Shown here: positions 38,901 through 60,609 of the stretch, one piece after another
Numbering within the stretch: the stretch's first letter is position 1
How the letters are laid out: every line of letters begins with the position of its first letter
Assembly: GCF_000373245.1 (NCBI RefSeq)
Contig: NZ_KB890758.1
Location: 125,977-189,976, forward strand
Origin: Echinicola pacifica DSM 19836
GTDB taxonomy: Bacteria > Bacteroidota > Bacteroidia > Cytophagales > Cyclobacteriaceae
Direction of reading: 5' to 3'
Length of the DNA: 64,000 nucleotides
Notes under the pieces: model-generated
Databases searched by the model: none
What the model saw: only the letters and a program-made list of their open reading frames with translations
Told to the model about the DNA's origin: nothing
Made by a program: the position numbers and the translations under genes

Positions 38901-40004
38901 CTACTCTTGGGCTTTTAGCGGATCTATTTGTGCAATGCGGCCATCCTCTAAATGGGTAAGCTTGGCCAATTTTATATTTCTAAGGTAATTTTTACCAGAC
39001 AACTCGGTGTCATGATAGAATATATACCATTGATTTTCATACTCTACTATAGAGTGGTGATTGGTCCAGCCCTGGACAGGCAAGAGGATGACACCTTGGT
39101 AAGTAAAGGGCCCATAAGGGCTATCTCCTATGGCATAGACGATCTTATGAGTATCGCCTGTGGAGTAGGAGAAGTAGTACCTGCCCTTATACTTATGAAG
39201 CCAAGCGGCCTCAAAGAAGCGACGGTCATGATCCCCAGCGGTGATGGGATTACCTTCTGCGTCGAGAATCAGGACATCTTTTGACTCTTCGGCCAGCTCC
39301 ACCATATTCTCACTGAGCCGGGCCACCTGCGGGGCAATGGCAGGTTCATCGTCAGCCGGCTCATCATCATCGGGAGCATCTCCGGTGGATAGGTATTCCC
39401 CGGTTCGCCACTTCTGTAGCTGACCTCCCCATATACCGCCCCAATACATATAATAGGTGCCATCTTCATCTTCAAAAACGGCTGGATCCATCGAATAAGT
39501 CCCCTCTATCGGCCTTGGATAAGCCTCAAATGGTCCTGCCGGATTGTCCGCCACAGCCACTCCTATTTTGAAAATATCATCATGGTCTTTGGCGGGGAAA
39601 TAGAGGTAATATTTACCCGCCTTTTCTGCCGCATCCGGCGCCCAAAGCTGTCTTTTGGCCCAAGGCACCTGACTTAGATCAAGGACTTTTCCATGATTGG
39701 TAAGAGATCCATCGGGCGCTGATAAGGAGAAGACGTGATAATCTTTCATATCATACTGTGCTCCAGAATCATCCTCATCCACCACTGATTCCCGATCGTG
39801 GGACGGATAGATATAGATCTTCCCATCAAATACATGGGCTGAAGGATCCGCCGTATATATTTCACTGACCAATGGAGCACTTAGGTACTGAATACTATCA
39901 CTGTGCTCCTCGGTGAGTTCCTGGCTTTCCGTTGATTTCTGATTTTCACAGCCTATTAGGCAGAGACTGGAAAATAAAACCGTAAAAACTAAAGGCTGTT
40001 TCAT
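38901..40004 (-). CDS. GH43 glycosidase lipoprotein (likely beta-xylosidase)
   Basis: 367 residues from ATG 40004, giving the lipoprotein signal MKQPLVFTVLFSSLCLIGCEN with lipobox Cys19. Five-bladed-propeller GH43 features are present: general-base Asp in EIYTADPSAHVF, pKa-modulating Asp in YSMDPAVFEDEDG, and acid Glu in RFFEAAWLHKYKGRYYFSYS. An acidic insert DAPDDDEPADDEPA around residues 208-221 is unusual and probably a surface loop. With a GH10 xylanase immediately upstream, trimming of xylo-oligosaccharides or arabinose side chains is expected. Confidence 0.88.
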   Translation of the reverse strand: MKQPLVFTVLFSSLCLIGCENQKSTESQELTEEHSDSIQYLSAPLVSEIYTADPSAHVFDGKIYIYPSHDRESVVDEDDSGAQYDMKDYHVFSLSAPDGSLTNHGKVLDLSQVPWAKRQLWAPDAAEKAGKYYLYFPAKDHDDIFKIGVAVADNPAGPFEAYPRPIEGTYSMDPAVFEDEDGTYYMYWGGIWGGQLQKWRTGEYLSTGDAPDDDEPADDEPAIAPQVARLSENMVELAEESKDVLILDAEGNPITAGDHDRRFFEAAWLHKYKGRYYFSYSTGDTHKIVYAIGDSPYGPFTYQGVILLPVQGWTNHHSIVEYENQWYIFYHDTELSGKNYLRNIKLAKLTHLEDGRIAQIDPLKAQE

Positions 40005-40109
40005 CTTATTATTAGGGTATATTATGGTGTTTATGTTCAAAATTAATTACAGGCGAATGCTGCTTTTCTTCTGCGAGATACCTGCCGGACTATAGGGAAA
40101 TTGCAGGCA

Positions 40110-41240
40110 TTATAGGCCTCGGCTTAAGGTTTCCAGCATCTGCTCTATCTCTTTTTTGAGAGAATAATCCTCCTCAAATAATAAGGGATAGGCTGTTCGT
40201 CCGCGAATAGGCCAGTTATTTAGCCAGCTATCCTGATCTCTGATCCCCCACAGTGTCACTCTGGTGACCACTTCCTGATGCTTGCCAAATAATTCGAATA
40301 AGTCTGCGTATCGCTGAGCCAGCTTTATTCTTAGGTCTTCAGGAAGGCCATTTTTATAAGGGTTGAATTGGTCTTCGTATTGAAAATTATCATCAATATC
40401 CGCCCCACGTCTATTGGTTGGATTAGGAAGGACATCGATATCCAGCTCGGTAATCATCACCTTAAGGCCTTGGTCTGCGATTTTCTGAATGGAGGCTTCT
40501 ATCTCTGCAAGGGAAGGAGATTCCAGCCCATAATGACCTTGCATCCCAATGCCATCGATTCGGATTCCTTGCTCTTGCAGCTCGGAAGCCATCCTAAGTG
40601 CCGCATCTATTTTCGCTGGCTTCCAGAGATTATAGTCATTATAGTAAAGCTCAGCAGCAGGATCTGCCTGATGAGCCGTTTCAAAAGCAGTAGCGATAAA
40701 CTCCTTGCCAAGGCTATTGAACCAAGGGGAACTTCGGTACTCGCCCTGATCGGTAAAGGCCTCATTGACCACATCCCAGCCGTGGATTTTTCCGCTATAG
40801 CGGCCCACCACCGTGAGGATATGCTCTTTCATACGCTGGTTGAGAGTTGCTGCCTCTATGGGCTCGTTTGCTTCATCCCGGAAGACCCATCCAGGAGTCT
40901 GATTATGCCATACCAAGGTGTGGCCCAGTACAAAAGCATTCAGATCTGCTCCCAGAGCCACATACTCATCTGCTAATGAAAAATTATATTGCTCTGGACG
41001 AGGGTGAACCGACTGCCATTTCAGCAAATTTTCGGGGCTGATGCTACTAAAATGCCGGGAAAGAGTGGCTCTCACTTTGGGGTCTTTTCCCATGACATCG
41101 CGACCATTCAGGGCCGCACCTACCAAAAATTCCTTGCGGAATACCTCCGACACCGATATAGTGCTATTCTCAGCACTTGGATGCCCTAGCCCCATTACGG
41201 TAAGAAGGCTTAGAAAATTAATTATTAATGTGATCATCAT
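40110..41240 (-). CDS. GH10 endo-1,4-beta-xylanase, exported
   Basis: 376 residues, signal peptide about 1-19. The GH10 TIM barrel is complete without accessory modules: GHTLVWHNQTPGW, acid/base Glu160 in GWDVVNEAF, YYNDYNLW, GIGMQGHYGLESPS and nucleophile Glu265 in VMITELDIDVLP. It likely works in the periplasm on xylo-oligosaccharides delivered by the SusCD transporters. It is the first gene of the second, minus-strand xylan cluster and faces the plus-strand 7TM-DISM sensor gene across a 500-base divergent region. Confidence 0.95.
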   Translation of the reverse strand: MMITLIINFLSLLTVMGLGHPSAENSTISVSEVFRKEFLVGAALNGRDVMGKDPKVRATLSRHFSSISPENLLKWQSVHPRPEQYNFSLADEYVALGADLNAFVLGHTLVWHNQTPGWVFRDEANEPIEAATLNQRMKEHILTVVGRYSGKIHGWDVVNEAFTDQGEYRSSPWFNSLGKEFIATAFETAHQADPAAELYYNDYNLWKPAKIDAALRMASELQEQGIRIDGIGMQGHYGLESPSLAEIEASIQKIADQGLKVMITELDIDVLPNPTNRRGADIDDNFQYEDQFNPYKNGLPEDLRIKLAQRYADLFELFGKHQEVVTRVTLWGIRDQDSWLNNWPIRGRTAYPLLFEEDYSLKKEIEQMLETLSRGL

Positions 41241-41750
41241 GGTTAAATTGGATTATATGAAATTTGGGTTAATGAATGATTTGCCAAATCAATGGGGATA
41301 TTTAGGAAATCCTTCCAAACAAATGTAATAGAGCTTAAATCAAATAAAAAATACTCACTCACACCACAAGTACTTGAATTACAGATAGTTAATATAAATG
41401 TATTCGGTTAAATCGCAGGATTTACTGTTTCATCACGAAAGTCAAATTCCTGCTAAGCCGTATTTTAGCTATGATTTGGGTCTGAAGGAGCATGTCCTGA
41501 TTCATCTAAACGAAAAATCAATTGCACTTAAAGCAAACAATTGTAAATCAACTAATTACCATTAAAAAAATACTTTAAACAGGGTTTTTAAGTTCCTATA
41601 AACTGCGGTTAGCCCCAGCTAAAATAGAATAACTGGCAGGCTAGAGCATTTTTATTATGTATATTCACTAGGCAAAAAAACCAGTTTCTAACTGGAGCGT
41701 CCGTATTCCCAATTAACCAATAAATCCTAACTGTGCACACCAAAGAGTTG
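41241..41750. other. Divergent regulatory region between GH10 and the sensor gene
   Basis: About 500 AT-rich bases without a credible gene. It must contain the promoters of both the second xylan cluster (minus) and the sensor gene (plus). If the sensor protein binds DNA, this is the first place to look for its site. I saw no long inverted repeat here. Confidence 0.5.
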
Positions 41751-43646
41751 ATGTTGATAGCGAGAAAGCTACTTCTAGTTCCATGCTTGATCTTATTTTG
41801 CCTGCAGGTCAATGCGGGGGATGCGAGGACCTTCCAGATCACCGATCAGGAGGATTATGATGACATCATCCTTTCTATGGACTTCATGGTGGATCCCCGC
41901 AATGACCTGAACATTACTGAGGTAAGTTCGAGTGAGTTTGCAGGGCAATTTAAGCCTATTACCTATATCAATATTCTTTACGACAGTCTGGACCATGATA
42001 TATGGCTGCGCTTTAAGGTGTCCAATCAATCACAGAATCCTGCGCGCTCCTGGTATTTTGAATCCTGGGGATTTGATATTAATCAATTCACCTTTTTCTT
42101 CCCTGCTGCTGATGGCCGCTATATCGCCAATACCTCAGGCTATGATTACCCTTTTTTCCAAAGGAATATCACTCACAAAAATTTCAATTATTTCCTCGAT
42201 CTACGCCCAGGAGAGACCAAGACATATTACTTTAAGGTAAGGCGAGATTATCCCTTGGCTTTTAATTTTCATCTGCGAACCAATGAGAAATTTATTTCCC
42301 ATTCTTTGAATGAGTATTATTTATTGGGCATTTATTATGGCGTCTTATTATTGATACTGGTATTCAATATCTACCTCGTATATAAGCTACGGGACACCCT
42401 ATACCTTTATTTTGCGGGGCTAATTCTTGCCTGTATCTGGTTTTCACTGGGCCGCGACGGCTTGGCATTTCAGTATTTATGGCCCAATAGCCCGAGCTTC
42501 AACCCACTCACCGAAGGCCGGATCACCCAGCTGATGGTGGTGGTGGCCACCCTTCTCTTCTCCAATCGCTTTGTCCAGAAGTACAACACTAACCCAAAGA
42601 TGCTAAAGCTAACCTTGCTGGCAATTGGGTTAAAGGTAATTTTGTTTTTCTTACAGGACCGATGGATCCATATTGATGGTTTGGTATATATCGCCTTGAC
42701 CATATTCATCATGCTCATTCCTTTTTCGATGGGCTTATGGCTGCTCATAAAAGCCCGAATATATTCTTGGTCTTATTTGTTTGCCTATGCCTGTTTGATT
42801 TTGGTGATCATCAATAGCTATGCTATCATCATCGCCTTATTTGAGGATCAGGTTATCAATTGGTATTTTGTCCATCCGGTGATATTCCTGGAAGTGGTCC
42901 TTTTTTCGCTTTCTATATTCAATCAAATAAAGTTTCTGCAGGAGCAATATAAGATGGTCAGCGAGGAAAAAACCCAGGCATTGATTGAGAAAAACCGCCT
43001 TTCTGATGAGTTAAACAATAAACTTCAGGAGAAGGTCCGCGAGAGAACGGAGAAAATAGAGAATATGGCCTCCGATCTGGCGAGCAAAAATATAGAACTT
43101 CAGACCACCAATTTGAAATTGCAGGAACTCAACGTGCAAGTGAATCAGATCAATGACTTCCTACGGAAAAATAATGAGCAGCTAAAAACCAATATGGAGG
43201 AAGTTACCAAAAACCTCGCCTTAATGAAAGGTCTGGATTTTGAAAGCTTCAAGAACGTATTCCCCGACAAAGACAGCTGCCTTCAGTTCCTCTCCGAACT
43301 AAAGTGGAGGCATAAATTCCAATGCAAAAAATGCGGCTATAATAAATACGCCGCCGGGCCCAATCACGGCCGAAGGTGCAAAAACTGCAACTATTACGAG
43401 TCTCCAACGGTGGAGACCCTATTTCATAAATTGAAATTTCCGATCGAAAAAGCCTTTTATATCCTCTACCTCTCCAACCGCAAAGATGTGGACCTTACGC
43501 TAAACGAGCTATCCGATATCTTAGAACTCCGAAGGGAGACCTGCTGGGCTTTCAAGAATAAGATCAGTCAGGCCATGGAAAAGGTCGATCATAATAAGGA
43601 TCTTAGCGGCTGGGAGAATCTGGCCTTGGTGCATCTAGAAGGCTAA
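41751..43646 (+). CDS. 7TM-DISM sensor fused to coiled coil and IS1595-type zinc ribbon
   Basis: 631 residues from ATG 41751, which starts a signal peptide (MLIARKLLLVPCLILFCLQV); a GTG six codons earlier opens the frame. Residue numbers below count from that GTG. Extracytoplasmic 7TMR-DISMED2-like domain about 35-185, with WLRFKVSNQSQ and RPGETKTYYFKVRRDY. Seven helices, about 193-400. A long coiled coil, about 403-505. Then a zinc ribbon with Cys531, 534, 549 and 552 and a helical segment TLNELSDILELRRETCWAFKNKISQAM, matching the N-terminal region of IS1595-family transposases. No DDE catalytic domain follows. Probably a membrane-tethered regulator of the flanking xylan genes. Confidence 0.85.
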   Translation: MLIARKLLLVPCLILFCLQVNAGDARTFQITDQEDYDDIILSMDFMVDPRNDLNITEVSSSEFAGQFKPITYINILYDSLDHDIWLRFKVSNQSQNPARSWYFESWGFDINQFTFFFPAADGRYIANTSGYDYPFFQRNITHKNFNYFLDLRPGETKTYYFKVRRDYPLAFNFHLRTNEKFISHSLNEYYLLGIYYGVLLLILVFNIYLVYKLRDTLYLYFAGLILACIWFSLGRDGLAFQYLWPNSPSFNPLTEGRITQLMVVVATLLFSNRFVQKYNTNPKMLKLTLLAIGLKVILFFLQDRWIHIDGLVYIALTIFIMLIPFSMGLWLLIKARIYSWSYLFAYACLILVIINSYAIIIALFEDQVINWYFVHPVIFLEVVLFSLSIFNQIKFLQEQYKMVSEEKTQALIEKNRLSDELNNKLQEKVRERTEKIENMASDLASKNIELQTTNLKLQELNVQVNQINDFLRKNNEQLKTNMEEVTKNLALMKGLDFESFKNVFPDKDSCLQFLSELKWRHKFQCKKCGYNKYAAGPNHGRRCKNCNYYESPTVETLFHKLKFPIEKAFYILYLSNRKDVDLTLNELSDILELRRETCWAFKNKISQAMEKVDHNKDLSGWENLALVHLEG

Positions 43647-43940: not shown

Positions 43941-45647
43941 TTATTTATCTGGCAATGCCTCATTGGATGTGGTGGCATATAAGCCGATCATATTTCCGGT
44001 AAATCCCCCAGCGACATTGGTAGAAAGGATATCTCCGGACACTCGGTCACCTAGTCGCAGAAAGTCCCCTCCGGGAAGAGCTATGCTAAATTCATAGGTA
44101 TCTCCATCGCCCTGCACCTTGAGGCGAACGGAGCCTGAATGGTTAATTTTTCGGCTGGCAAGGAGGACGGACTCCCCTTTTTCGGTCCTTTGCAAAACGA
44201 TATAATCCTCACCCTCGAAATGTGTAATGCCGAAGACATAATTGAAACTTTCACTCTGCAGGCAGGTTAAACCAGCCAGATCTTCTTTGGAAGAAGGTTG
44301 ATAGTCCATCGACGTTTCAAAGGTAAAGGCTTTATGCTGTTGACGATAAAATAAGGTGGAAGTGGGTTTGGCTTCCTGGATGGCAACATCAAAGGGCTGT
44401 ATCTGTAATCCACGCTGGGTAAGATGGACAAAAGCCTCTCGGGGTCCGCGAAGACCTATCCAGCGAAAATCAAGTGAAGAAGAGCTGAAATCCTCCTTAT
44501 AAGTAAAATTCCCGTTGGGAAAGAATCCATTCTTTCCAGTATTATTCTTAATGCCATAGGGCATTTTAAGCTTTGGTTCCAAGGGCACCAGACCATTGAC
44601 AAATACCGGGAAGTCTCCGGACCAATCCACGGGGAGGATAAAAGTTTCCCTGCCCGTAGTGACCCGGTTTTGGTCATTTGGGCGTACTCCCAAAAACACC
44701 CCGTAATACTGATCATCGGGTCCCTGGATCAAGTCAGCATGACCCGCCCAATCCACACTATTTGGTCTGTCTTTGGGGAAATGCCTTTGGGTGAGAATTG
44801 GGTTATTTGCCGCAGGCACAAATGGACCTGTGGGCTGATCGGCCACAAAAATCACCTCACTATGCCAGCCACCGGTGCCGCCCTCAGCGCACATCAGATA
44901 GTACTTACCCTTATGCTTGTATAAATGTGGGGCCTCGATCCATATCGGCTGCTTCGAAATATCCACCCCGCCATTTACAATTATTTTATCTGTTCCTGCT
45001 ATAATTTGATTCTTTTGCAGGTCATATTCCCAGATTTTTATTACCCTGTGCCCCTCGTATAGCGCCAGATCCGGAGCATCATTATGCACGATATAAGCCT
45101 TTCCATCCTCATCAAAAAACAAGGAAGGGTCTATGCCGTCAAACCCCAGTTTGATGGGAGCAGACCAGCCTTTTGCGGGATCCTTGGTACTCACCACGAT
45201 ATTACCTAAGCCGCCAGCCAGTACGGTGGTGATCATATAGAAAGTATCATTTTGCGGATTATATACGATTCCTGGAGCATATACCCCTCCACTTATCCCG
45301 GAACTACTCAAATCCATCTGTGAGGGTTTATCCAATACATGCCCAAGCTGGGTCCAATTTACCAGGTCCGTGGAATGAAAAATAGGCACCCCGGGAAACA
45401 TCGCAAAGGAAGAGCATACCATATAATAATCCTCGCCCTTCCGGGTGATGGCAGGATCCGGGTAACAGCCCTGAAGGATAGGGCTATAAAATTCGTCGGG
45501 ATCAAGAGGATAATCCTTATAGATCTGATCATTCCCCGTATAAGTCACCTGAGTGAATAGTGGCGAAGATTGATTTTGGCCGGAGGCCGTAAAAACCCCA
45601 AAAAGAAGGGTGAATAAGGCTATAAATTGTTTTTGAAGCTTTTTCAT
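43941..45647 (-). CDS. GH43 beta-xylosidase/arabinofuranosidase with C-terminal beta-sandwich
   Basis: 568 residues with a signal peptide ending near TASGQ (about residue 24). GH43 propeller signatures: base Asp in GCYPDPAITRKGEDYYMV, Asp in GFDGIDPSLFFDEDG, and acid Glu in IWIEAPHLYKHKGKYY. The C-terminal 190 residues, from about NFTYKEDFSSSSLDFRWIGL, form the concanavalin-like C2 module found in long GH43 enzymes. Likely removes xylose or arabinose from xylo-oligosaccharides. It follows the CBM-containing GH10 gene by 305 bases across a strong terminator, so it probably has its own promoter. Confidence 0.92.
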   Translation of the reverse strand: MKKLQKQFIALFTLLFGVFTASGQNQSSPLFTQVTYTGNDQIYKDYPLDPDEFYSPILQGCYPDPAITRKGEDYYMVCSSFAMFPGVPIFHSTDLVNWTQLGHVLDKPSQMDLSSSGISGGVYAPGIVYNPQNDTFYMITTVLAGGLGNIVVSTKDPAKGWSAPIKLGFDGIDPSLFFDEDGKAYIVHNDAPDLALYEGHRVIKIWEYDLQKNQIIAGTDKIIVNGGVDISKQPIWIEAPHLYKHKGKYYLMCAEGGTGGWHSEVIFVADQPTGPFVPAANNPILTQRHFPKDRPNSVDWAGHADLIQGPDDQYYGVFLGVRPNDQNRVTTGRETFILPVDWSGDFPVFVNGLVPLEPKLKMPYGIKNNTGKNGFFPNGNFTYKEDFSSSSLDFRWIGLRGPREAFVHLTQRGLQIQPFDVAIQEAKPTSTLFYRQQHKAFTFETSMDYQPSSKEDLAGLTCLQSESFNYVFGITHFEGEDYIVLQRTEKGESVLLASRKINHSGSVRLKVQGDGDTYEFSIALPGGDFLRLGDRVSGDILSTNVAGGFTGNMIGLYATTSNEALPDK

Positions 45648-45952: not shown

Positions 45953-48094
45953 TTACAATCCTTGCAGGCCTTCCACGAAGCCAGCATAAGCAGGCTTTCT
46001 GTTGAGCTGTTGGGTCCAGAGTCCCTGTCGCTCACCGGGCAGCCAATTGGCATCCTCCTTACTATCGGTAACCCCCCATATGGTGATGCCGTACTGCTGA
46101 TTTTTGGGCACATATTGATGGTACATGTCCACCACGTATTTATACATCTCCGATTGCTCTTCGAGGATCTCGGGGCTAGGGTTAGCGGTATTTACCCTTA
46201 CGTCTAGTTCTGAGACTTTGATCAATTTACCCGTGGCCGCAAGCATCTCAAACATCTTAGCGATATTTTGCTTATTTGAGTGGATTCCAATATGCATTTG
46301 AGTGCCGATGCCATCCACTTGGGCGCCCTGGGCCTCCAGGTAGGCCACATAGTCGATTAGTCCTTGGCACTTGTCGAGATTGTACTCCAGATTATAGTCG
46401 TTGATAAAATGGACATCCTCGGGGCTGCCATACTGGCGAGCAAGCTGGAAGGCCTTCACCGCATAGGCTTTGCCCATATAGTCCTGCCAAAAGAAATTGT
46501 CCGTCGGAAGATCAGATTTCCCAAGGCCTGTTTTCAGCTCATAAGGATTGCCGTCATCCATAGGTTCATTGACCACATCCCAGGTTTTCACATGACCTGC
46601 GCTGGCGGTGACCATTCCTTTGATCCATCGCTCGAGTTCCCCCTCTATAATTGCCTGCTTTTCCTCGGCTTCTTTGGGGACCAATATAGTTTCTCCTCCG
46701 GGCACCGAGGCGCTTTTGAGGACCACATTATCTATATAGACCGTGCCTGCAAACTCTCCATAGCTGATGATAAATCGGCCTCGGTCAGCTGCGCTCACGG
46801 TAATGGAGTATTCATATTGTTTCCACGAAGTGGTAATAAAAACCTGCCCAAAACCATCCGAAGAATAATCCGGACTCTGGAGTTCAGGTCTGATAATACC
46901 TTCGGCATCTCCCCTGGCCCAGAAGCTCAGGGTGTAGGTTTCTCCATTTTCTAAAGGCTCAGCAAATGAATATAAAGACTGCACGCCCCAGAAGCCACTG
47001 GTCAACGAAGGGTTGGACACAAAAAAGGCTTTGCCTGCCCCTCCATAGCCCATCCCATCCTCGGTGAGTCCGCGGGTGGAGTTATTGCCCCATCCTCCCC
47101 AAGCCTCACCGGCTTCGAAGTCCCCATTAGAAACAATATTTTGCACCCCGGCCTCTCCCTCAGGATCATACACATACATGGTATTTATATCGATCCAATA
47201 GCTCGTATTGGCAGTATATCCAAGGTCAAAATTTAGGCGAAAGGTCTCTGCTTCAAAACCGCTGATACGAAATCGGATTTCCTTCCAGGAGATTCCTGTT
47301 TGGAAGGTGGCAGAGGAATTTCCGCTGCCAGTCCAGTCCCTTTCTGAAGCATCCTCGCCCAGCAGCCCCTCGAAACTTATTCTTCCTTCTCCCTGTCCAT
47401 CAGACTTGATGAAGGCGATCAGTTCGTAGGTTTTGCTAGGGTCAATGGCTATATCAGGAGAGCTCAGCTGTAAGGAGCTTGGCTCCTCAGAAGAGGAAGC
47501 CTGCAAGAGGAAAGCACGTGCATCATCTCCCAGGCCTGCATTCTCCACTATAGAAACTGCTCCAGTGGTCTTCCAGCCTGAGAGATCTCCTTTTTTGGCG
47601 GAAGCAAGGTCCAGCTCATTGGCAATGGCCGGAGAACTCACCTCCAGCGGCTGCAAAAGCCGATTTAGGTATATTGCATTCTGGTTGCTATGCCAGCATA
47701 AGGTATGACCATATATGCTCGTTCCCGCTTCCGCGGCTGCCTCGAATAGGCTGTTTATACCCTCCATTTTGAGGGATCCATCGGACTGGACCACGGCGCC
47801 ATGCTTCATCCCATAGCCGACGGTGATTTCATCAAAGTTGCTATTGATCAATCTATACATCACGCCTTTGCTGGCATATTCCTGCAAATTCACGGCAGCC
47901 CCCAGCGTAAAATCCTGAGCGGAGGAATGGTCAAGGTAGGTTTTTAGGGGTTGGTAGCTATTCAGCTCCTCCTGGAGGGCTACGGATTCGGGTTTTTGGA
48001 CCTGGAAATCCTGACTGGCCATATCCTCTACGCAGGCGGAAAAGCAGCCCCCAATGGCTATAGCAAGGCCTATATTTAGGTATCTTTTGTTCAT
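45953..48094 (-). CDS. GH10 xylanase lipoprotein split by inserted CBM modules
   Basis: 713 residues, lipoprotein signal MNKRYLNIGLAIAIGGCFSA with Cys21. The GH10 barrel begins at about 55 (YGMKHGAVV, YGHTLCWHSNQN) and is interrupted at about 155-460 by two tandem beta-sandwich modules of the CBM4/CBM9-like type (each ending in an IDI/IDNV strand). It then resumes with acid/base Glu510 in TWDVVNEPMDD and nucleophile Glu629 in IKVSELDVRV. This layout is characteristic of Bacteroidota surface xylanases encoded next to tandem SusCD genes. It should cut xylan at the cell surface before import. Confidence 0.95.
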   Translation of the reverse strand: MNKRYLNIGLAIAIGGCFSACVEDMASQDFQVQKPESVALQEELNSYQPLKTYLDHSSAQDFTLGAAVNLQEYASKGVMYRLINSNFDEITVGYGMKHGAVVQSDGSLKMEGINSLFEAAAEAGTSIYGHTLCWHSNQNAIYLNRLLQPLEVSSPAIANELDLASAKKGDLSGWKTTGAVSIVENAGLGDDARAFLLQASSSEEPSSLQLSSPDIAIDPSKTYELIAFIKSDGQGEGRISFEGLLGEDASERDWTGSGNSSATFQTGISWKEIRFRISGFEAETFRLNFDLGYTANTSYWIDINTMYVYDPEGEAGVQNIVSNGDFEAGEAWGGWGNNSTRGLTEDGMGYGGAGKAFFVSNPSLTSGFWGVQSLYSFAEPLENGETYTLSFWARGDAEGIIRPELQSPDYSSDGFGQVFITTSWKQYEYSITVSAADRGRFIISYGEFAGTVYIDNVVLKSASVPGGETILVPKEAEEKQAIIEGELERWIKGMVTASAGHVKTWDVVNEPMDDGNPYELKTGLGKSDLPTDNFFWQDYMGKAYAVKAFQLARQYGSPEDVHFINDYNLEYNLDKCQGLIDYVAYLEAQGAQVDGIGTQMHIGIHSNKQNIAKMFEMLAATGKLIKVSELDVRVNTANPSPEILEEQSEMYKYVVDMYHQYVPKNQQYGITIWGVTDSKEDANWLPGERQGLWTQQLNRKPAYAGFVEGLQGL

Positions 48095-49197: not shown

Positions 49198-50976
49198 TTA
49201 CCAGCCGGAATTCTGCTGAAGGGCAGCAAATTTCAGGATCTCGCTATAGGGAACCGGGCCATAGATCATATAATCGGCATATACTCTATTTTCGACATTG
49301 ATCACGGCATAGTCGCTATCATTCATGATGCGGATTCCCTTGGCGGTTTCGGTAAGGCTCAGGTCCCACCTTCTCAGGTCCCAGAAGCGGAACCCTTCGA
49401 AGCTCAGCTCCAGTCTTCTTTCATTTCTGATTAAGTTTCTCATCGCCTCCTGGTCTCCTTTGATGGATTCCAGATAAGGGTCCCCATTGCTCAGGCCTAT
49501 GCCAGCTCTTTGGCGGATTGCCTTGATGACATCATAGGCCGAGAAAGAATAATTCCCCATCGCTGTGGGACCCCAAGCTTCGTTTGCGGCTTCTGCATAG
49601 ATGAGAAAAATCTCTGTGTACCGGATTCGAGGCTGGATATGTCTTTGCTGACTATTGGAGACGGGATCCAGGTTTACATCTTGGCGGAGGAGTTTGCGGA
49701 GGTAATAGCCCGTTCTGGTGGAAGACTCCACCTTATTTAGGCCATCATTAGTCTCTGAGTCCTGGGCGGTATCTATCACCTTATTGGAAGCGCCGGCGGT
49801 ACTGCCATTGACCACGATAAAGGCCTGAAGCCGAGGGTCGCGGCCCTGGTAAGGAGCCTCGGCAAGGTATCCGGAAGCGGGGTCTCCGATCGGGTAGCCG
49901 CTGGCCATTGGAAAGGCCTCCACCAGGTTTTGTGTGGGGTTTACGAGGCCCTCACCAAAGAGTGTAGGCGGAAAATTCTGGGCTTCCAGGGAGTTGTTGG
50001 CATCTCCAATGGTCGTTCTCCAGAGGATTTCCCTGGGATTTGCTCCACCACCGATATTATCGATTTCGGAGGTATTGGCATACCAGGTATGGCCTTGGGG
50101 ATCCATGCCGGACAGCCCGCCGATATCTGTCAGGATATCACCGGAATACTCCGCAGCTTCTGCCCATTTTGACTGATCCGATGAGAGGTTGAAGGCGGGG
50201 CTTGCCGCTAGCAGCGCCGCCTGAGCCTTGACGGCCAGGGCTATTCTTCCAGACAGCAACTGGATCGCATCATCGCCAAAAGCCCGATTATAATCACTCG
50301 CTTTGGCTCCGAGTTCACGGTATTGTGCGGGAACCAGAGCTTCATCATTGATATTCTGATAGTCCATTGGAAGCAGGGCTAAGGCCTGATCCACGTCTGT
50401 GTATAGTTGGTCCATACACTGCTCAAAGGTACTCCGAGGCTGGTTGAAGTCAGAGCTTACATTTTGAGATTGCAGGTTGATGGGGATGCCCAGGAGCTCC
50501 CCCCCGGCGACGCCTCCATGCGCTTGCAGCAAATAGTACATAAACAAGGCTCGGAGGCCATAAGCTTCGCCTTTGATACGATCGGAAAACATTTGATTTA
50601 CAGAAGGAATTTCCGAGAAATTCACCTCATCGATCTCTTCCAGCACCACATTGATGTACTGGATGGCAGACTGTGCGCTGGTCCATCGGTCCACGGGATT
50701 GGAGTTCGAGGCCCACTGACCAGTGGCCATATTCAGGTATCCATTGGTAAGGTCATTGCTGACGGCATCATCCGTGGCCATTTCGCTAAAGGACCAGCCA
50801 TTGGTGGGGATGCGTAGGTAGGCATTGATCAGCAGTCCCTGGGCGAGATTTGGTCTATAATAGATGTCATCCTTGCCCAGGATATTCTCCGGTGCCGGGT
50901 CAATAAAGTCATCACATGAAACGATCGGCAGCAGCAGTGAGACGTATAAGCAAATCTTGAAATATAACTTTTTCAT
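49198..50976 (-). CDS. SusD/RagB-family lipoprotein (xylan locus, second pair)
   Basis: 592 residues with lipoprotein signal MKKLYFKICLYVSLLLPIVS followed by Cys21. SusD features include GEAYGLRALFMYYLLQAHGG, TEIFLIYAEAANEAWGP, RNERRLELSFEGFRFWDLRRW and the final GPVPYSEILKFAALQQNSGW. It starts 14 bases after the stop of its SusC partner. Together they form the second of two tandem import pairs, an arrangement known for xylan loci. Confidence 0.95.
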   Translation of the reverse strand: MKKLYFKICLYVSLLLPIVSCDDFIDPAPENILGKDDIYYRPNLAQGLLINAYLRIPTNGWSFSEMATDDAVSNDLTNGYLNMATGQWASNSNPVDRWTSAQSAIQYINVVLEEIDEVNFSEIPSVNQMFSDRIKGEAYGLRALFMYYLLQAHGGVAGGELLGIPINLQSQNVSSDFNQPRSTFEQCMDQLYTDVDQALALLPMDYQNINDEALVPAQYRELGAKASDYNRAFGDDAIQLLSGRIALAVKAQAALLAASPAFNLSSDQSKWAEAAEYSGDILTDIGGLSGMDPQGHTWYANTSEIDNIGGGANPREILWRTTIGDANNSLEAQNFPPTLFGEGLVNPTQNLVEAFPMASGYPIGDPASGYLAEAPYQGRDPRLQAFIVVNGSTAGASNKVIDTAQDSETNDGLNKVESSTRTGYYLRKLLRQDVNLDPVSNSQQRHIQPRIRYTEIFLIYAEAANEAWGPTAMGNYSFSAYDVIKAIRQRAGIGLSNGDPYLESIKGDQEAMRNLIRNERRLELSFEGFRFWDLRRWDLSLTETAKGIRIMNDSDYAVINVENRVYADYMIYGPVPYSEILKFAALQQNSGW

Positions 50977-50990
50977 GGTCTTGGGTCTAT

Positions 50991-53900
50991 TTAAAATTTC
51001 GCTTTTAAACCGAGGTTATAAAATCTTGTTTGGGGAGCACTACCAACGTTCAGCTCCAGAATATCGCGATTTGGGGCGATGGTGAGCAGGTTGGCGGCAT
51101 TGACATAGAGATCGAGCCCCTTGAGGAAGCGCTGTCCAAACAGCTGCTCAGGGAAGGTATAGGAAACCTGTACCCGATCCAGATCAAAGCGGTTGGTGCT
51201 ATAAACCCAAAAGTCTGAGGACCTGAAATTATTCGTTCCACTCTGGGTGGTCAGGCGGGGGAAGCTGGCCTCCGCCTTAGTCTCTTCGGTCCATCTACCA
51301 CGGACAATTTCTGAGTATTTATCGTCACCATTGACCCAGAAATAATTGGAATTTCGCATTGCGAAGGCGCCACTTCTGAGTGTTCCCAAGGCGAAGAAGG
51401 TAAGGTTTTTGACTTTTGCTGATAGGTTAAAGCCCATCGTCAAAGGGGCGCCGGACCATCCGCCACGGCCAAGGTACACCTGGTCCTGGTCATTGACCAG
51501 GCCATCATTATTTTGGTCCTTATATTTGATATCTCCGGGCTTCACCTCGCCAAAAGCCTGGCTGGGGGAATTTTCGATATCATCTAGCCCCTCAAAAAAC
51601 CCAATCGCTTCCAAGCCCCAAATAGCATCCAGCGGTTTGCCTTCCCGCACCTGATAGCCATTTTCATAATTCTCTGATCGCTTGGAGGCCTGAGTGGAAT
51701 AGTAGAGGCCGGATATCCCCACATTCCAGTCCACCTGACCAATTTTCTTATGCAGATTCAGCTTAAAATCCAGGCCTTTTCGCAGGTCGTCATTATAGTT
51801 GACATAAGGTATCCAGGAAGACACCGGCCATCCGGTGGTAAAATAACTAGGGTAAAGAATATTGTTTTGAACAAAAAGCCCTGTCATCTTGGTCCAGAAA
51901 TACGATCCGCTGATGGTAATTAGGTTATTGAAGAATACCCCATCTACTCCCAGGCTGATTTCCTCCCTCTTTGGGAACGTCAGGTCGGGATTCTCTCCCC
52001 TTCGCACGTCAGTGGCGGTATTGTTAAGCCCATCCTTCCAGCTGTACCAAGAGCCATCATCAGTATAGATAGCTTCATACAGATAGTAATCATCGATATC
52101 CAGATCGGTATGCAAGATCCCACCCGAAACAGAAAGCTTCAGATCATCTATCACCGAGGACGATTTCAGGAAATCCTCTTCGCTAAGCCTCCAGGCGAGT
52201 GATAAGGTGGGAGAAAAGGCATCGCGATTTCCTTCCGCCAACCTTGCCGAATGAGAGAGGGCTCCGCTAAAGTCGGCATAGTATTTTTGCTTATAGCTAT
52301 AGCTTCCATAGACCCCCAGGGTGGCATTGCTTATCTTATGATAGATGCCTGATTCGGCCGTCTGGAAGCCATTGGCCACGAGCATAGCCGAGATCGTATG
52401 CACCCGATCGATCTGCTTGGTATAATTTAATTGGGCCGAAAAGGCCAAGGTTTGCCTAAACCAATTATCGTAAATATTCTGAGTGCGGGAGCTGGCATCC
52501 TGCCCATATTTTGTCAGACTGGCTATTTCATCTTCCCCATTATAATTGGTCCAAAAGGGCTGATATACGGCATATTCATTACTATAAGAGAGGTTATACC
52601 TAGTGGAATAATCCAAGCCAAATTGTCCGCTAAAGCTAAGCCCTTCCAGGAGGTTCTGAAGGTCTCCATTTAGTCCGGCATTGAACTGGAATTGTCTGCT
52701 GGTAAATTTATTGGATCCCCCTGCATAGATATCAGCGATAGGATTGGTCTGGTCCAGCTGAGTACCACCCAGCAGGTATTTCCCATCGATGATATGATCG
52801 CTGCTTTCCACATACGCAAGGGAAGCCTGATCGCTGTCATTGATCATATCGATGGGGATAAGGGGGGTAAATCGGTAAGGCCTTAGTCTGCTAGCCCCTC
52901 CCCAATAGTCTGTATTTACGCCTTTGCCATTATAGAAGATCGCCGAGGCATCTACCTTTGCCGAGATATACTCATTGAGGTCCAAGTCCACATTTCCGCG
53001 GATATTAAATCGCTCGGTGGCATTGTCCTGTGCCTGCCCAAAGTCCAATAAAGATCCCTGAGTCCAGAAACCCACATTGGTATAATACCGGGCACTTTCA
53101 TTTCCGCCAGAGATCTCCATCGTGGCATCATACCGGCTATAGGCTTCCTGCAGGTAGTCCTCCGAATAATAATCCACATTGGGGTAGCGGTAGGGGTTTT
53201 CGCCGGTTGAATACTGATAAATATCCTCCTGAGAATATAAAGGTGAAAGGCCATCATTGGTCCTCGCCTCATTATATAAGCTCATATACTCTGAGGAGCC
53301 CAGGTACTGCGGAAAACTCTTTGGGACGTGGATGCCTGCATTGGCACGAACCTGAATCTCCTGACGGCCGGTGACCCCTCTTTTGGTAGTGATCAGCAGT
53401 ACGCCTTTGGCCGCTCTGCTGCCATATAAGGCCAGGGCAGACACTCCTTTGAGGAAGGTAATTTGGGCGATTTCGGTGGGCATGACACTGCCAATATCTC
53501 TGGGAACACCATCCACGAGGGTAAGGTAACTGTCATTTCCCCATAGATTTCCATTATATCCTCCCACATACGCCTCCATCCCATCCAGCGGATAAGTAAG
53601 GTAGTTTTGGTCCAGGACTTCTGGCATATTGACATAATCTATGCCTCCGGAGAGCTCCCGCTTATCCTTGGTCTGAAAAGGCAGCTGCACCGTCTCCCCT
53701 TCTAAGTAGGGAAAAAGAACGATCTGCTGAAGATCCCGGCTTACTTGGAGCAGTTTGGTTTCGTAACCCGGGGCTTCCACTCCTAGGTAAGCATGAAGGC
53801 TCACCTCCAGCTCCACGATGCCCAAGGTGTCAGAAACTGCCGAATATTGGTCCTGATCACTGGTGGCTACCGCCCCGTAAATGGGCTCGCCCGTATTGGA

Positions 53901-54008
53901 AATGACCTTGGGACTAAGTGAAATTTTCGGATTACTCTGCGCTCTGGCCAATAAGGGCATGAAGAGAATCCATGCACAGCATATCCATTTTATATTTTTA
54001 GCGTTCAT
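50991..54008 (-). CDS. SusC TonB-dependent receptor without STN domain (xylan locus, second pair)
   Basis: 1005 residues, signal peptide about 1-23. There is no STN signalling domain; a degenerate carboxypeptidase-regulatory-like domain (about 28-100) leads into the plug, with TLVDGVPRDIG and FLKGVSALALYGSRAAKGVLLITTKRG, then the barrel ending FYNLGLKAKF. Lacking STN, it should not signal to FecR itself and probably depends on the upstream receptor pair for induction. Partner SusD follows directly. Confidence 0.95.
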   Translation of the reverse strand: MNAKNIKWICCAWILFMPLLARAQSNPKISLSPKVISNTGEPIYGAVATSDQDQYSAVSDTLGIVELEVSLHAYLGVEAPGYETKLLQVSRDLQQIVLFPYLEGETVQLPFQTKDKRELSGGIDYVNMPEVLDQNYLTYPLDGMEAYVGGYNGNLWGNDSYLTLVDGVPRDIGSVMPTEIAQITFLKGVSALALYGSRAAKGVLLITTKRGVTGRQEIQVRANAGIHVPKSFPQYLGSSEYMSLYNEARTNDGLSPLYSQEDIYQYSTGENPYRYPNVDYYSEDYLQEAYSRYDATMEISGGNESARYYTNVGFWTQGSLLDFGQAQDNATERFNIRGNVDLDLNEYISAKVDASAIFYNGKGVNTDYWGGASRLRPYRFTPLIPIDMINDSDQASLAYVESSDHIIDGKYLLGGTQLDQTNPIADIYAGGSNKFTSRQFQFNAGLNGDLQNLLEGLSFSGQFGLDYSTRYNLSYSNEYAVYQPFWTNYNGEDEIASLTKYGQDASSRTQNIYDNWFRQTLAFSAQLNYTKQIDRVHTISAMLVANGFQTAESGIYHKISNATLGVYGSYSYKQKYYADFSGALSHSARLAEGNRDAFSPTLSLAWRLSEEDFLKSSSVIDDLKLSVSGGILHTDLDIDDYYLYEAIYTDDGSWYSWKDGLNNTATDVRRGENPDLTFPKREEISLGVDGVFFNNLITISGSYFWTKMTGLFVQNNILYPSYFTTGWPVSSWIPYVNYNDDLRKGLDFKLNLHKKIGQVDWNVGISGLYYSTQASKRSENYENGYQVREGKPLDAIWGLEAIGFFEGLDDIENSPSQAFGEVKPGDIKYKDQNNDGLVNDQDQVYLGRGGWSGAPLTMGFNLSAKVKNLTFFALGTLRSGAFAMRNSNYFWVNGDDKYSEIVRGRWTEETKAEASFPRLTTQSGTNNFRSSDFWVYSTNRFDLDRVQVSYTFPEQLFGQRFLKGLDLYVNAANLLTIAPNRDILELNVGSAPQTRFYNLGLKAKF

Positions 54009-54053
54009 CTGTAAGATCTTTTTGTGGTTGACTAAACAAAATACCTGTGGATA

Positions 54054-55952
54054 TTACCATCCTGGATTTTGGTTAAACTCAGGGTATAAGGTGACATCAG
54101 ACACCTTGAGCGGCAGCCAATAATGTCGATCACTGAAGTTCCTTTCCAATAGCACCTGCTCGTGCATATTGATTATTTGGTTTTGGGAAGGATCAGCGGC
54201 GTCGAATTCCCCTGCCCGATCAAACTCAAAAGAAGTCTTCAGCGTATGGGGCTCCTCGGTCAGCAGCAGCCACCTCCTGAGGTCATTGAACCGATGGCTC
54301 TCAAAGGCCAGCTCCACGGCTCTTTCTCTTCTCAGCTCTTCCAAAAACACAGACGTAGAAGCGGTGAAGTCGCTATGAACAGCCGCCATATTCACCCGGT
54401 CCCGAAGGACGTTCACTGCGTCCACTGGGGTTTTAGAGTAGGTATTGGAGGTGGCGCTGGGGGAATTAAAGCCCATCAGCGTGGCCTCGGCATACATCAG
54501 GTAAATATCAGCCAGCCTCATATAGGGGACATTGATATGCAGAGAGCTGCCCCAATTATAGGCTCTATCGTATTTATTGGAGGTAAGAGGTTTAAATTTT
54601 GTACTTAGATAGCCCGTGCGACTTCCGGAAGCCACATCTCTATAGCTCCCGCCTTCATAGAGGTTGGCAAACCTGTTGACCTCTTCATTGGGATCAGGAA
54701 TCGCTCCCTGGATTACCTTCACCCCATCATAGACGATATCATGGTAGAAGCGCGGGTCTCTATCTTTCCACGGATGATTAGGGTCAAATCCCGAAACAGG
54801 ATCCGCCTTGCTGACGTCTGCGGGGAGAGGAAGTCCATTAGCCATGCCATAGTTAGCATGAATATAATTGGCCGTAGGGGCAAATAATGTAGCATCCCCA
54901 TCACTGATCACCCGAGGCATAAATTGCTTGGAGATCTGGTAATTGGTGGAGTTGGCGGAATAATAAGGTCCGCGAAAGATCGCCTCCGTGCCTCCTGGCA
55001 GGGCCCAGTTTTGCCCCGTGGTATAGAAATTAGTAGAATATTTGTCAAATGGCAGCAATTCATATTGAGTATCACCGCTCTCTACGAGACTCAGCAATTC
55101 CCCGAAAGCATTGGCCGCCAGGGTACAGTAAGCAGCATCATAAGTACTGCTACCGGTGGACACTTGGTTCATCAAAGGACTTCCTGCCCAGAGGTAATTT
55201 TTACCTAAATAGCCCAAAGCCATGATTTTATTTATTCTCAGCTGGTTTTTGCCAAGGGTCCTGCGTCCGGCTGTGGTATTGTCCCAGTCCACAGGAAGCA
55301 GTTGTGCTGCCCTGGCGAGGTCCTGCCCTATTCTGTCGGCACATTCATGATAGCTAAGCCTTGGCAGCTGGAGTTTCTCATCGCTCGGAAGGACATAATC
55401 CACATAGGGCAGCCCTCCGAAATATTGGATCAGCGAGAAATGAAACCAGGCTCTGAAAAATAGCAGCTGGCCTTCTATGAGTCTTCTCTCCTCCTCGGTG
55501 GCATCCACCATTTTGGAGAGATTTTCCAGGCCTAGGTTAGCCTTGCGTATGCCATACCAAGCCAGTGGCCATAGCCCCTTATTTTTGTGATCTTGGTCAG
55601 TATAAGCCCCCCCAGCATCCAGCCAGCTATCTCCTCCACCCATCTCGTTTTGCCAGGCCCAAAAATTACCTCGGTCGATATCATACGAAAGGTGAAATGT
55701 ACCTGCGGTGGATTCGATTTCATCCTCCCCCCAGTTCCAGGAGCTCGTCCAATACGAAAGCGTAAAATTGGGAATACACTGATAAAGTTCTTCAGTGTAG
55801 CCCTGAAAATTGGTGAAATTATGAAAGGCTGTTTCCTCAGAAATAATGGACTCGGGAGTTCTTTCCAAATAATCCTCACAAGAGGTGAAGGCCCATAAAA
55901 ACAGGGTACACATGCTCCCTCTCAAAATATTTTTTATATAGTTGCTTTTCAT
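54054..55952 (-). CDS. SusD/RagB-family lipoprotein (xylan locus, first pair)
   Basis: 632 residues from ATG 55952, which starts a lipoprotein signal (MKSNYIKNILRGSMCTLFLW, then AFTSC). A more distal ATG at 55979 would overlap the SusC stop by 14 bases and adds nine residues before the signal, so I prefer the inner start. Family traits: EGQLLFFRAWFHFSLIQYFG, LADIYLMYAEATLMG, RRERAVELAFESHRFNDLRRW, and the C-terminal HYWLPLKVSDVTLYPEFNQN. Confidence 0.95.
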   Translation of the reverse strand: MKSNYIKNILRGSMCTLFLWAFTSCEDYLERTPESIISEETAFHNFTNFQGYTEELYQCIPNFTLSYWTSSWNWGEDEIESTAGTFHLSYDIDRGNFWAWQNEMGGGDSWLDAGGAYTDQDHKNKGLWPLAWYGIRKANLGLENLSKMVDATEEERRLIEGQLLFFRAWFHFSLIQYFGGLPYVDYVLPSDEKLQLPRLSYHECADRIGQDLARAAQLLPVDWDNTTAGRRTLGKNQLRINKIMALGYLGKNYLWAGSPLMNQVSTGSSTYDAAYCTLAANAFGELLSLVESGDTQYELLPFDKYSTNFYTTGQNWALPGGTEAIFRGPYYSANSTNYQISKQFMPRVISDGDATLFAPTANYIHANYGMANGLPLPADVSKADPVSGFDPNHPWKDRDPRFYHDIVYDGVKVIQGAIPDPNEEVNRFANLYEGGSYRDVASGSRTGYLSTKFKPLTSNKYDRAYNWGSSLHINVPYMRLADIYLMYAEATLMGFNSPSATSNTYSKTPVDAVNVLRDRVNMAAVHSDFTASTSVFLEELRRERAVELAFESHRFNDLRRWLLLTEEPHTLKTSFEFDRAGEFDAADPSQNQIINMHEQVLLERNFSDRHYWLPLKVSDVTLYPEFNQNPGW

Positions 55953-55965
55953 TGGGGTCTCGATT

Positions 55966-58900
55966 TTAGAATGTAACATTTAGGCCAAGGTTAAATCGCC
56001 TTACGGTGGGATAAGTCCCTACATAGCCAGCAGAGGAGAAATTAGACTCTCGGTCGTCAGGCATATCGGTCCATAGCAATAGGTTATTGCCATTGAGGTA
56101 CATTCGCAAATTGCTTAAGCCTAAGCTCCTCACCCAGTCAGCCTGAAAGTTATAGGCGATTTCAGCATTCTTTAGCCTCAAATAAGAGCCATCATAGAGG
56201 TACCGCGTACCTGAATTATACCCAGCGGTTTGGGAAATCCATCTTGGCATGGGGGAGTCGGGATTGGAGATATCCTTATCCCAATACGTTCCTTCCTCAT
56301 ATACTCTATTTAGCCTGCTGGATAAACTGGTTAGTGGCACATCTCGATTCACATTGTTCACCCCATAAAACTGCACATAGAGGCTAAGCCCTTTCCATTC
56401 CACTCCTAAATTGGTGCTGAAAGTATTCTGAGGCACCCCCGAGAAACCATAGGGAGCAGAGTCAAAGGAATCTATCACCCCATCCCCATTAAAATCCACG
56501 ATATAATAATTGCCAGGCAATTTTGATAGATCATTGGAATTATGGGGGGTACTGGCATAGACCTCATCCCAGGTATTATAATATCCTGCGCTAATATGGC
56601 TTCGGTATTGGCCTAGCTGGTAGCCTTCGCTTTTCTGGTAGTCCACCTGGAGCTCAGGATCATCCCGGTCCAGCACCACATCCTGAGCATGGGTCATCGA
56701 AAAATCCCCCCATACTTTAATGCCATTCTCAAAACTGTGATTTAGGCCAAGGGTAAACTCAAAGCCCTCCGTCTCCACCCTACCCAAGTTGGCAGCGGGG
56801 GCCACCGCTCCATAATAGCTGGGAACAGACCGACCACTAGACATCAGGATATCTACCCTATTGTCCCGGAAGAGGTCCACACTACCCGTCAATCGCTCAT
56901 TGAACAAGCCAAATTCCATCCCGGCATTGTACTTATACACGGTCTCCCAGTGCACATTTGGGTTTCCGATGGTGCTCTGCTGGTACCAGGTATAGGGGCT
57001 GTCCTCCCCTTGCTCCCCGATCACGCCCAGCTGTGAATTGCCGCCGTAACTCCACTGATCCATAAAGAGGAACCTGCCGCCGATATTATCATCTCCCACT
57101 TCCCCATAAGAGGCCCGAAGTTTCAGCCGATCCACAAAATGGATGTTTTTCATAAATGCCTCCTCGGAGACATTCCAGCCGATTCCTCCGGAACTAAAAA
57201 AGGCAAAGCGGTATTCGGGTGAGAATTTTTCTGAGCCGTTATAAGCGCCATTATATTCCACCATATATTTATTTTTATAATCATAAGTTGCGCGGAAAAC
57301 CCAATCCTCCCGATAGCTAGGAATGACACTTCCGATGGCATCTTGCTGACGGTTCATCAGGCCCATCACGGAGTAATTATGGCGCTCGTCAATACTTCCG
57401 GCATAATTGAGCTGCAACTGATAAAAAACCCGACGCTGCGCTCCATCGACAGTTCCTCCTTCGGTCACCCAGGTCACCTCCTCGCGGAAGTCAAATCGGG
57501 TATTGGCATCCAGGGGATTGGTGTATAAGTGCTGGCCTGTCTGAGGGTCGATCCATTTGGTGAAGGTGTCATTATAGAGGTCATTGATCCCCCGGTCGTA
57601 TTCCTGAAAGGAATTATCCACTGCTAGTGTCCCGCGGAAGGACAAGCCCTTGGTGATCATGTCCAGGTCCTGCTCGAGGACAAAGTTGGTAGATAATCGG
57701 GTATTGGTGATGTACTCGACCCCACTTACTGCAAGATTTCGTACTGAATTCTGCGCTGCCACATTATCTGGCTGATAGACTCCCCAGGCGCCATCCGCAT
57801 ACTGAGGCATAAAGACATCCGGCGCATTTTGGTACACGGCATGCCAGTATCCACCGGGAAAATCATAAGCCCATGGAGCCTGTCTCACGCCATAACTCCC
57901 TCCCAGATTGACCAATAGCTTGGTGGAGGATGTCAATTGAAAATCCAGGTTACTTCGGAAGTTCAACCGATTGTAATTGAAGCCGGGATTATAGCCACGG
58001 TTATTATCAAAATCTCTAAACAAATCGCCTTCATTCTGGAAGTCCACACTTGCAAAGTATTTGGTGAATTCAGTTCCTCCCCGAATAGCCACATTGGCAT
58101 TATAGGCCATGGCATAGCTCTTAAATACGGCATCCTGCCAGTCCACATTAGGAAATCTTTCGGCTTCTTCCAGGTTTGCCGGATAGCGGTATTTCTCCCG
58201 AATGCTCTGAGGAATGATGTCATACCAGCTGTCGGGACTATTGGACAGCTCATATTCGATGGCTCTGTTTCTGACGCCGATCGCATCGTAGGAGTCGTAT
58301 TTACCGGGAAGCTTGGAGACCACTTTCATGGTCGAGCTGAAGTTTGCGGTGATCTCAGCCTTGCCCTCGCGTCCACGTTTTGTGGTGACGATGATCACGC
58401 CATTGGCTCCTCGAGAGCCAAATACTGCCGTGGCAGAGGCGTCCTTGAGAACCGATATAGATTCTACAGAGTTGATGTCCATTACATTAAAAAACTCTGG
58501 TCGCTCTACTCCATCCACGAGGATGAGCGGGGCATTGCCATTCCAGCTATTCTGACCACGAATGACGATCTGGGGCATCTCCTCCCCAGGGATCCCGGTG
58601 CTGGCAGTGGTGATGACACCTGGCAGGTTTCCGGTCAGGGCTTGCCCCACATTGGACACCCCACCGGTACGCTTGAGCACTGCGCCATCCGTCTGGGTCA
58701 CTGCCCCCACGATGGTTGCCTTTTTCTGTTCCGCATATCCGACCACGACCACTTCATCGAGTGATTGCAGGTCTTCTGCCAGAGCAATATTAATGGTCGC
58801 CTGAGCCCCCACGGTGATCTTCGTCTCCTGAAAGCCTACGAAACTGTACACAAGGACATCGCCCTCGTTTACCTTGATGGTATATTCCCCATCGATATTG

Positions 58901-60566: not shown

Positions 60567-60609
60567 ATATTATCCATCATCAAGGGCAGCAGCTCAGAGG
60601 CCATGCCCA

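Follow-up and report, generated by a model that had tools for sequence, protein, structure and literature searches.

Why a membrane sensor should end in a domain of the kind found at the N-terminus of IS1595 transposases, and what such a protein would do beside a GH10 xylanase gene, are the questions raised by the gene designated here P0001. We consider it likely, at a probability of roughly 0.72, that P0001 is tethered to the membrane and regulates polysaccharide loci as a one-component system carrying a captured transposase DNA-binding domain, with DNA binding, ligand, and regulation all being inferred.

Domain anatomy of P0001 and its neighbors

A preliminary description, made from sequence alone, had claimed that P0001 consists of a 7TM-DISM sensor, a coiled coil, a four-Cys zinc ribbon, and IS1595-type helices with no catalytic domain, and that its divergent neighbor is a GH10 xylanase gene. 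Both claims held. The parts of P0001 are as follows.

41751..43646, + strand: P0001, the fused sensor gene, an open reading frame of 631 residues from ATG
41877..42278, + strand: 7TMR-DISMED2 periplasmic sensor domain (residues 43-176, Pfam 1.4e-24)
42312..42917, + strand: 7TMR-DISM_7TM membrane domain (residues 188-389, Pfam 8.8e-25)
42936..43217, + strand: long helix or coiled-coil linker (about residues 396-489)
43266..43394, + strand: IS1595-type zinc ribbon (residues 506-548; Cys 525, 528, 543, and 546 in ATG numbering)
43434..43610, + strand: helical HTH-like segment (residues 562-620, NF033547)

An alternative GTG start at 41733 would yield a protein of 637 residues, and the zinc-ribbon residues initially given as 531-552 fit that numbering. 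P0001 met the Pfam criteria for a 7TMR-DISM receptor and for a DISMED domain, with 88.3 bits for 7TMR-DISM_7TM against a cut-off of 29 and 87 bits for 7TMR-DISMED2 against a cut-off of 22. The linker was modeled as a helix spanning residues 367-489 in a low-confidence structure, and coiled-coil families were among the weak Pfam matches.

The profile search of the C-terminus that had been proposed as a check was carried out. For P0001 alone, the evidence for an IS1595-type C-terminus is suggestive: Zn_ribbon_IS1595 (PF12760) matched residues 506-548 with E 0.005, and the NCBIfam IS1595 transposase model (NF033547) matched residues 562-620 with E 3.3e-5, corresponding to model positions 3-62 of 215, both being under the cut-off. 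The relatives make the homology firm. The C-terminal domains of 23 relatives all matched the NCBIfam model, and 21 of the 23 matched PF12760 (E 0.01 or better for both), while the four zinc-ribbon Cys were invariant in all 23 aligned rows. Neither Pfam nor NCBIfam revealed a DDE catalytic domain in the P0001 open reading frame. No histidine kinase, receiver, or AraC domain was found with Pfam up to E 1, so P0001 is not a hybrid two-component system; nor were sigma or FecR domains found with Pfam, so it is not an ECF sigma or anti-sigma protein.

Structure prediction, also proposed as a check, did not settle the fold. With a ten-sequence alignment, the C-terminal domain alone was modeled at a mean pLDDT of 56 (pTM 0.41) and the full-length protein at 54; both models are too poor to use, and the values are too low to tell a rubredoxin-like from a DNA-binding fold. 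PDB sequence searches gave no significant match (lowest E values 0.34 and 0.13). The HTH segment (residues 553-612) proved to be the most conserved part of P0001, with a mean identity to nine orthologues of 94%, compared to 81% for the zinc ribbon, 70% for the coiled coil, 67% for the membrane part, and 53% for the sensor.

The window, that is, the whole stretch of 64,000 nucleotides that was analyzed, places P0001 among the following genes.

38901..40040, - strand: GH43 gene (PF04616)
40110..41240, - strand: GH10 xylanase, the divergent neighbor of P0001 (PF00331, 1.3e-92)
43941..45647, - strand: GH43 with GH43_C2 (domain matches)
45953..48094, - strand: GH10 with CBM_4_9 (domain matches)
49198..59400, - strand: two SusC/SusD-type pairs (domain matches)
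55966-59400, - strand: SusC1, within the SusC/SusD stretch
59541..61278, - strand: FecR-type anti-sigma and ECF-type sigma factor, upstream of SusC1 (domain matches)

The GH43, GH10, and SusC/SusD genes listed after 43646 thus lie on the far side of P0001 from the divergent GH10 gene. The middle SusC-like open reading frame, at 50991-54008, gave just a sub-cut-off Plug match. Elsewhere in the window, a second FecR/ECF-sigma pair adjoins another SusC/SusD-type pair (27924-30015), and a tricorn-like protease (PD40, Tricorn_C1, PDZ, and Peptidase_S41) and a Sde182-type cellulose-binding protein flank the xylan cluster (30587-35602).

Relatives of P0001 and the origin of its output domain

The gene had been put forward as an unusual one-component regulator, and this required correction. 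P0001 is no isolated oddity; it belongs to a large conserved family with full-length relatives across the Cyclobacteriaceae and the order. At E 0.001, a match to P0001 was present in 116 of 148 Cyclobacteriaceae genomes, many of these matching by the sensor only or the C-terminal domain only. Close orthologues were found in 20 of the 148, including the genome that supplied the window; the other 19 share 47-78% identity over nearly full length, and two genomes (G039 and G043) carry a second copy. Close relatives occur in Echinicola, Belliella, Rhodonellum, Arthrospiribacter, and Indibacter. Nearly full-length paralogues at 26-34% identity are found in many more genomes of the Cyclobacteriaceae, and the window's own genome carries one (G000:C2:681020-682783).

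A profile made from 23 C-termini matched 115 of 291 genomes of the order at E 1e-5 and 31 of 395 genomes of the phylum at E 1e-10, with up to 12 matches per genome, counts that take in transposases and partial open reading frames as well. Two fused proteins outside the order (L074 and L076) were identified by inspection. Plasmid records of Flammeovirga, Persicobacter, and Aureibacter gave eight matches at 25-29% identity that reach residue 607-630. Members in four plasmid records are annotated as "7TM diverse intracellular signaling domain-containing protein", a statement resting on the record annotation and not on translations.

The C-terminus of P0001 is homologous to the N-termini of IS1595 transposases. 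Four transposase-type open reading frames from related genomes (L096, L097, L098, and L107) matched it in tblastn searches with 45-46% identity and E values of 1e-29 to 1e-32, and in L097, at 46% identity, the same zinc ribbon is followed by DDE_Tnp_IS1595. Like IS1595 transposases (PF12760 with PF12762, NF033547), P0001 has the zinc ribbon and HTH-like domain, but these lie at the C-terminus of a receptor instead of the N-terminus and no DDE domain accompanies them; P0001 is therefore not an IS1595 transposase. When nine loci were used as tblastn queries against the whole window at E 0.01, no transposase match was obtained outside the P0001 C-terminus, and the window is thus without a catalytic (DDE) transposase remnant.

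A maximum-likelihood tree was made from 77 domains, which remained from 81 rows once duplicates and the partial rows L102 and L108 had been removed. All 52 fused domains fell into one branch (support 99/93) beside intact transposases, the neighboring branch holding five transposases and two partial open reading frames. Also within the fused-domain branch are L058, a copy truncated where its locus ends, and the stand-alone open reading frame L078. The tree was rooted at its midpoint, and the formal count of changes for the label "fused" is two because L058 carries another label. The same zinc-ribbon/HTH-like output was further found behind Reg_prop and Y_Y_Y domains (L105, L106, and L110), and the output domain is therefore portable.

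Several of these sequences have features of their own. L078, from a genome outside the class (G565), encodes only 151 residues of zinc-ribbon/HTH-like sequence and branches beside the fused domains. Genome G567 has nine copies of transposase-like open reading frames of 306-339 residues, and in two of its copies (L075 and L107) the usual VDETYVGG stretch is altered. The L097 and L098 transposase open reading frames have inverted repeats near their ends; these looked operator-like by eye only, and no such resemblance is claimed.

Linkage to polysaccharide loci and a candidate operator

We compared 23 orthologue loci, which represent 22 genomes, L040 and L123 being the same place. GH10 was present in 20 of the 23, being missing from the stretch examined in L038, L117, and L122, and GH43 in 15; genes for GH67, GH115, and esterases recur, and gene order and strand vary among genera. 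In whole genomes, no more than 2 kb separated the orthologue from a GH10 gene in 16 of 20 cases, and no more than 25 kb in 18; in the genomes G021 and G097 it lies near a contig end with GH10 on another contig. Each orthologue-bearing genome has one to six GH10 matches. GH10 was present in all 20 of these genomes versus 62 of the 128 others, although Fisher values for such comparisons ignore shared ancestry.

Linkage extends to more distant family members, there to loci for other sugars. We examined 21 further loci, namely that of the own paralogue and 20 selected among the better matches, hence not a random sample. SusC is the next gene downstream, on the same strand, in 14 of the 21 and is nearby in 17, and it was missing from L125, L134, L141, and L143. 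A GH144-like gene was labeled in 11 of the 21. The paralogue in the window's own genome is the first gene of a SusC-SusD-Laminin_G_3-Glycoamylase (PF10091) cluster, PF10091 being what we take to be GH144.

The spacer between GH10 and P0001 aligns poorly among Echinicola species save for a few short blocks, of which the clearest is common to a second genus (L112 and L116). It corresponds to a bipartite motif, an AAGCG-type half together with a palindromic TGAWWWTCA, of which the window has a degenerate copy with three mismatches to the 31-base pattern.

41520..41551, + strand: candidate operator, between GH10 and P0001

With up to five mismatches allowed, the bipartite pattern gave 22 matches in 1.03 Mb of xylan loci and none in 0.31 Mb of the other family loci, versus one and none for the reversed pattern used as a control; the xylan loci partly overlap, so that some sites are counted twice. 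All 20 inspected sites were intergenic, with eight between GH10 and P0001 (weakly in L119), 11 before SusC1, and one (L153) near an ECF-sigma gene. Sites on the SusC1 side lie 400-624 bp upstream of the SusC1 start. The palindromic half alone was hardly enriched (120 matches versus 88 for its reverse in the xylan loci, and 26 versus 31 in the other family loci), and only the bipartite motif is claimed.

Searching the 148 whole genomes with two mismatches yielded 21 sites in 19 genomes and none for the reversed control. The motif was present at this stringency in 16 of the 20 orthologue-bearing genomes versus three of the 128 others (the Fisher values again ignoring shared ancestry), and all ten perfect sites are on the contig of the orthologue, within 51 kb. 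The orthologue-bearing genomes without a site at two mismatches were G000, which is the window's own and has the degenerate site, G047, G021, and G097; one site in an orthologue-bearing genome sits on another contig (G040:C40). When the search was extended to 390 genomes, 242 of them new, there were 33 sites in 30 genomes and none for the reversed control. Among 11 loci from genomes not used for derivation, five sites lie upstream of a SusC1-like gene (35-75% identity over the piece in reach), four lie upstream of ECF-sigma/FecR, and those in L189 and L190 are near neither. The presence of P0001 was not established at these 11 loci, nine of which belong to P0001-bearing genera.

A regular arrangement was apparent when 17 loci with a SusC-side site were compared. 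Beyond the distal site, 12 of them have a second TGAWWWTCA, where 0.46 would be expected from plain letter shuffles, and 13 have ARCGCAA. A TAnnTTTG box, which we take to be the Bacteroidota -7 consensus, is found in 16 of the 17 at +191 to +193; in L200 it is at +202, and the second site is displaced correspondingly. The second site thus lies approximately 55 bp upstream of the -7-type box, from which we infer a place usual for activators. This arrangement comes from other genera and not from the window, where no convincing motif was seen by eye upstream of the SusC1 or ECF-sigma genes and the next-best site scored 11.9 versus 37.4. Nor was a clear motif seen by eye upstream of SusC1 in G047 and G111. 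An attempt to describe the second motif copy with a single pattern failed, giving one match with three mismatches.

The SusC1 upstream regions (for example, L150, L155, L161, L164, L166, and L177) include a leader of approximately 300 bases that separates the -7-type box from the SusC start. By eye, this leader opens with an ACCCAA...ATG that recurs among the loci and may encode a leader peptide. The ECF-sigma/FecR pair upstream of SusC1 is shared by the window and several same-genus genomes (L152, L204, L207, L208, and L209), and a tblastn search of the xylan stretches read from other genera was negative for it. Where the motif and the pair occur together outside the window, the motif is upstream of the sigma gene, which suggests layered or swapped control.

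Other family loci have a different motif, TTGNAATCAATGTTTTT, located 129-177 bp upstream of SusC in L126, L127, L129, L133, L136, and L140, and in L137 at two mismatches. With one mismatch there were six matches in 315 kb of the family loci versus one in 1.03 Mb of xylan loci, and with two mismatches eight versus ten. Genome-wide confirmation failed, as a 30-base pattern for these loci gave three sites in 148 genomes, only one of them at a family locus.

Proposed mechanism, rival explanations, and known systems

In our model, P0001 would be held in the inner membrane as a one-component regulator whose periplasmic 7TMR-DISMED2 domain is inferred to sense a xylan-derived sugar imported through SusC/SusD. 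The signal would cross the membrane helices and coiled coil to the cytoplasmic output, a zinc ribbon and HTH-like domain from an IS1595-type transposase minus its catalytic domain. The output would then bind the bipartite site of AAGCG-type half and TGAWWWTCA, the motif being shown and the binding inferred, and would activate xylan genes, as inferred from the distance of the second site to the -7-type box. Predicted targets in Echinicola are the divergent GH10 gene and P0001 itself, and elsewhere SusC1 or its ECF-sigma gene; relatives may regulate other polysaccharide loci alike, often GH144-type SusC/SusD loci. The anatomy, homology, single branch, linkage, and motif with its spacing are shown. 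The initial claim of a membrane-tethered one-component xylan regulator has only indirect support: the fusion is conserved in different genera, the tree shows a single capture branch, the genes are linked to loci for xylan and other polysaccharides, and a candidate operator accompanies the gene. That P0001 binds DNA and regulates these loci is still inferred.

A referee might object that the motif, SusC1, and P0001 travel together. A search of 18 genomes for SusC1 (identity of at least 64%) located it only in those bearing P0001, and a close SusC1 was absent from same-genus genomes without P0001 (G053, G095, G123, and G138); G021 and G097 have P0001 and no close SusC1. Since all three are passed on jointly, finding them together is no proof of binding of the motif by P0001. 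It is therefore conceivable, though we consider it unlikely, that P0001 regulates the locus and acts elsewhere, the motif being a leader element or belonging to another factor, such as a LacI-type or global sugar regulator. Besides the joint gain and loss, this explanation is favored by a LacI-family gene in six of the 23 orthologue loci and by the 400-624 bp between SusC1-side sites and the SusC start. Against it, one motif is found at unrelated promoters (GH10/P0001, SusC1, and ECF-sigma), and P0001 is the sole regulator-like gene in 23 of 23 loci, albeit these were chosen for having P0001. In addition, no usual transcription factor was found when ten proteins near SusC1-side sites were scanned; the ten include one HTH_38/rve transposase and one 110-residue open reading frame without a match.

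A zinc-ribbon/HTH-like end that no longer binds DNA, serving instead as a dimer or protein-interaction module that, for example, couples the sensor to a cytoplasmic partner, appears very unlikely. There are no DNA-binding data, the poor models leave the fold undecided, and the net charge of residues 491-612 is only +7, all of which leave room for this possibility. It is opposed by the HTH being the most conserved part of the protein, by the linkage to a conserved motif, and by reuse of the output behind Reg_prop/Y_Y_Y sensors. That a sensor gene was joined by accident to a decayed insertion sequence, with no resulting function, can be all but excluded. IS1595-type transposases do exist in related genomes, but the same architecture is kept in open frames across many genera and in one tree branch, the window is without a catalytic remnant, and the HTH is strongly conserved.

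Regulation by P0001 through the captured domain thus remains our preferred reading. We lean, with less assurance, toward a bolder version, in which a single capture of a DDE transposase DNA-binding domain in Cytophagales led to a whole class of membrane-tethered polysaccharide-locus regulators, having many copies per genome, at least two sensor types, and same-shaped operators that differ between paralogue groups. If true, this would give host-transposase fusion factors an equivalent in bacteria and would add a type of regulator beside SusR, HTCS, and ECF-sigma/anti-sigma systems. P0001 would exemplify, in a bacterium, the reuse of a transposase DNA-binding domain as receptor output, DNA binding being inferred, and a class of candidate glycan regulators would have been hidden behind a generic annotation name. 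The motif makes the DNA-binding claim directly testable.

Among known systems, SusR and SusR-like proteins of Bacteroides are single-chain membrane regulators with a periplasmic sensor and a cytoplasmic C-terminal DNA-binding end, and adjoin SusC/SusD (PMC3878776). P0001 resembles them in its architecture by domain matches, its SusC/SusD context, and two predicted boxes far apart, its orientation and DNA binding being inferred. SusR itself is described as having a DNA-binding domain unlike that of any known factor and, as predicted sites, direct repeats 67 or 77 bp apart (PMC3878776), whereas P0001 has an IS1595 transposase-type domain and boxes approximately 135 bp apart in the opposite order. 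Transmembrane transcription regulators (PMC10269533) likewise combine a membrane span and a DNA-binding domain in one chain, as inferred for P0001. The survey that covered them relied on a defined list of Pfam DNA-binding models (PMC10269533), and the words "transposase" and "zinc" are absent from its main text, from which we infer that the P0001 family was probably outside its scope. Proteins of mobile elements turned regulators are also known as TldR (PMC13418256) and the animal transposon-derived factors (PMC10027918); TldR is RNA-guided and the latter are eukaryotic, and neither is apparently a membrane receptor output, unlike P0001.

A DNA-binding output on a 7TMR-DISM receptor is already known, from proteobacterial genomes in which 7TMR-DISM is joined to the ChiS-family domain (PMC8092284). 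Both would be DNA-binding-type outputs, binding by P0001 being inferred, but the ChiS domain is an unrelated HTH variant, and the word "transposase" is absent from the text of that paper. A transposase-derived output was not found in print: the open-licence literature, supplements excluded, held no paper on 7TMR-DISM with a zinc-ribbon/IS1595 transposase-type output. The extracytoplasmic domains of 7TMR-DISM receptors are predicted to bind carbohydrates (PMC6107284), and P0001 shares with these receptors (PF07695/PF07696) the periplasmic DISMED2, the seven membrane helices, and a cytoplasmic output. It differs in that output, a transposase-type zinc ribbon and HTH-like domain, the common ones being histidine kinase, GGDEF, EAL, and PAS (PMC6107284). 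In L125 and L134, a family member and a second 7TMR-DISM protein, the latter ending in a histidine kinase, are arranged head to head; one type of sensor thus occurs with two outputs side by side.
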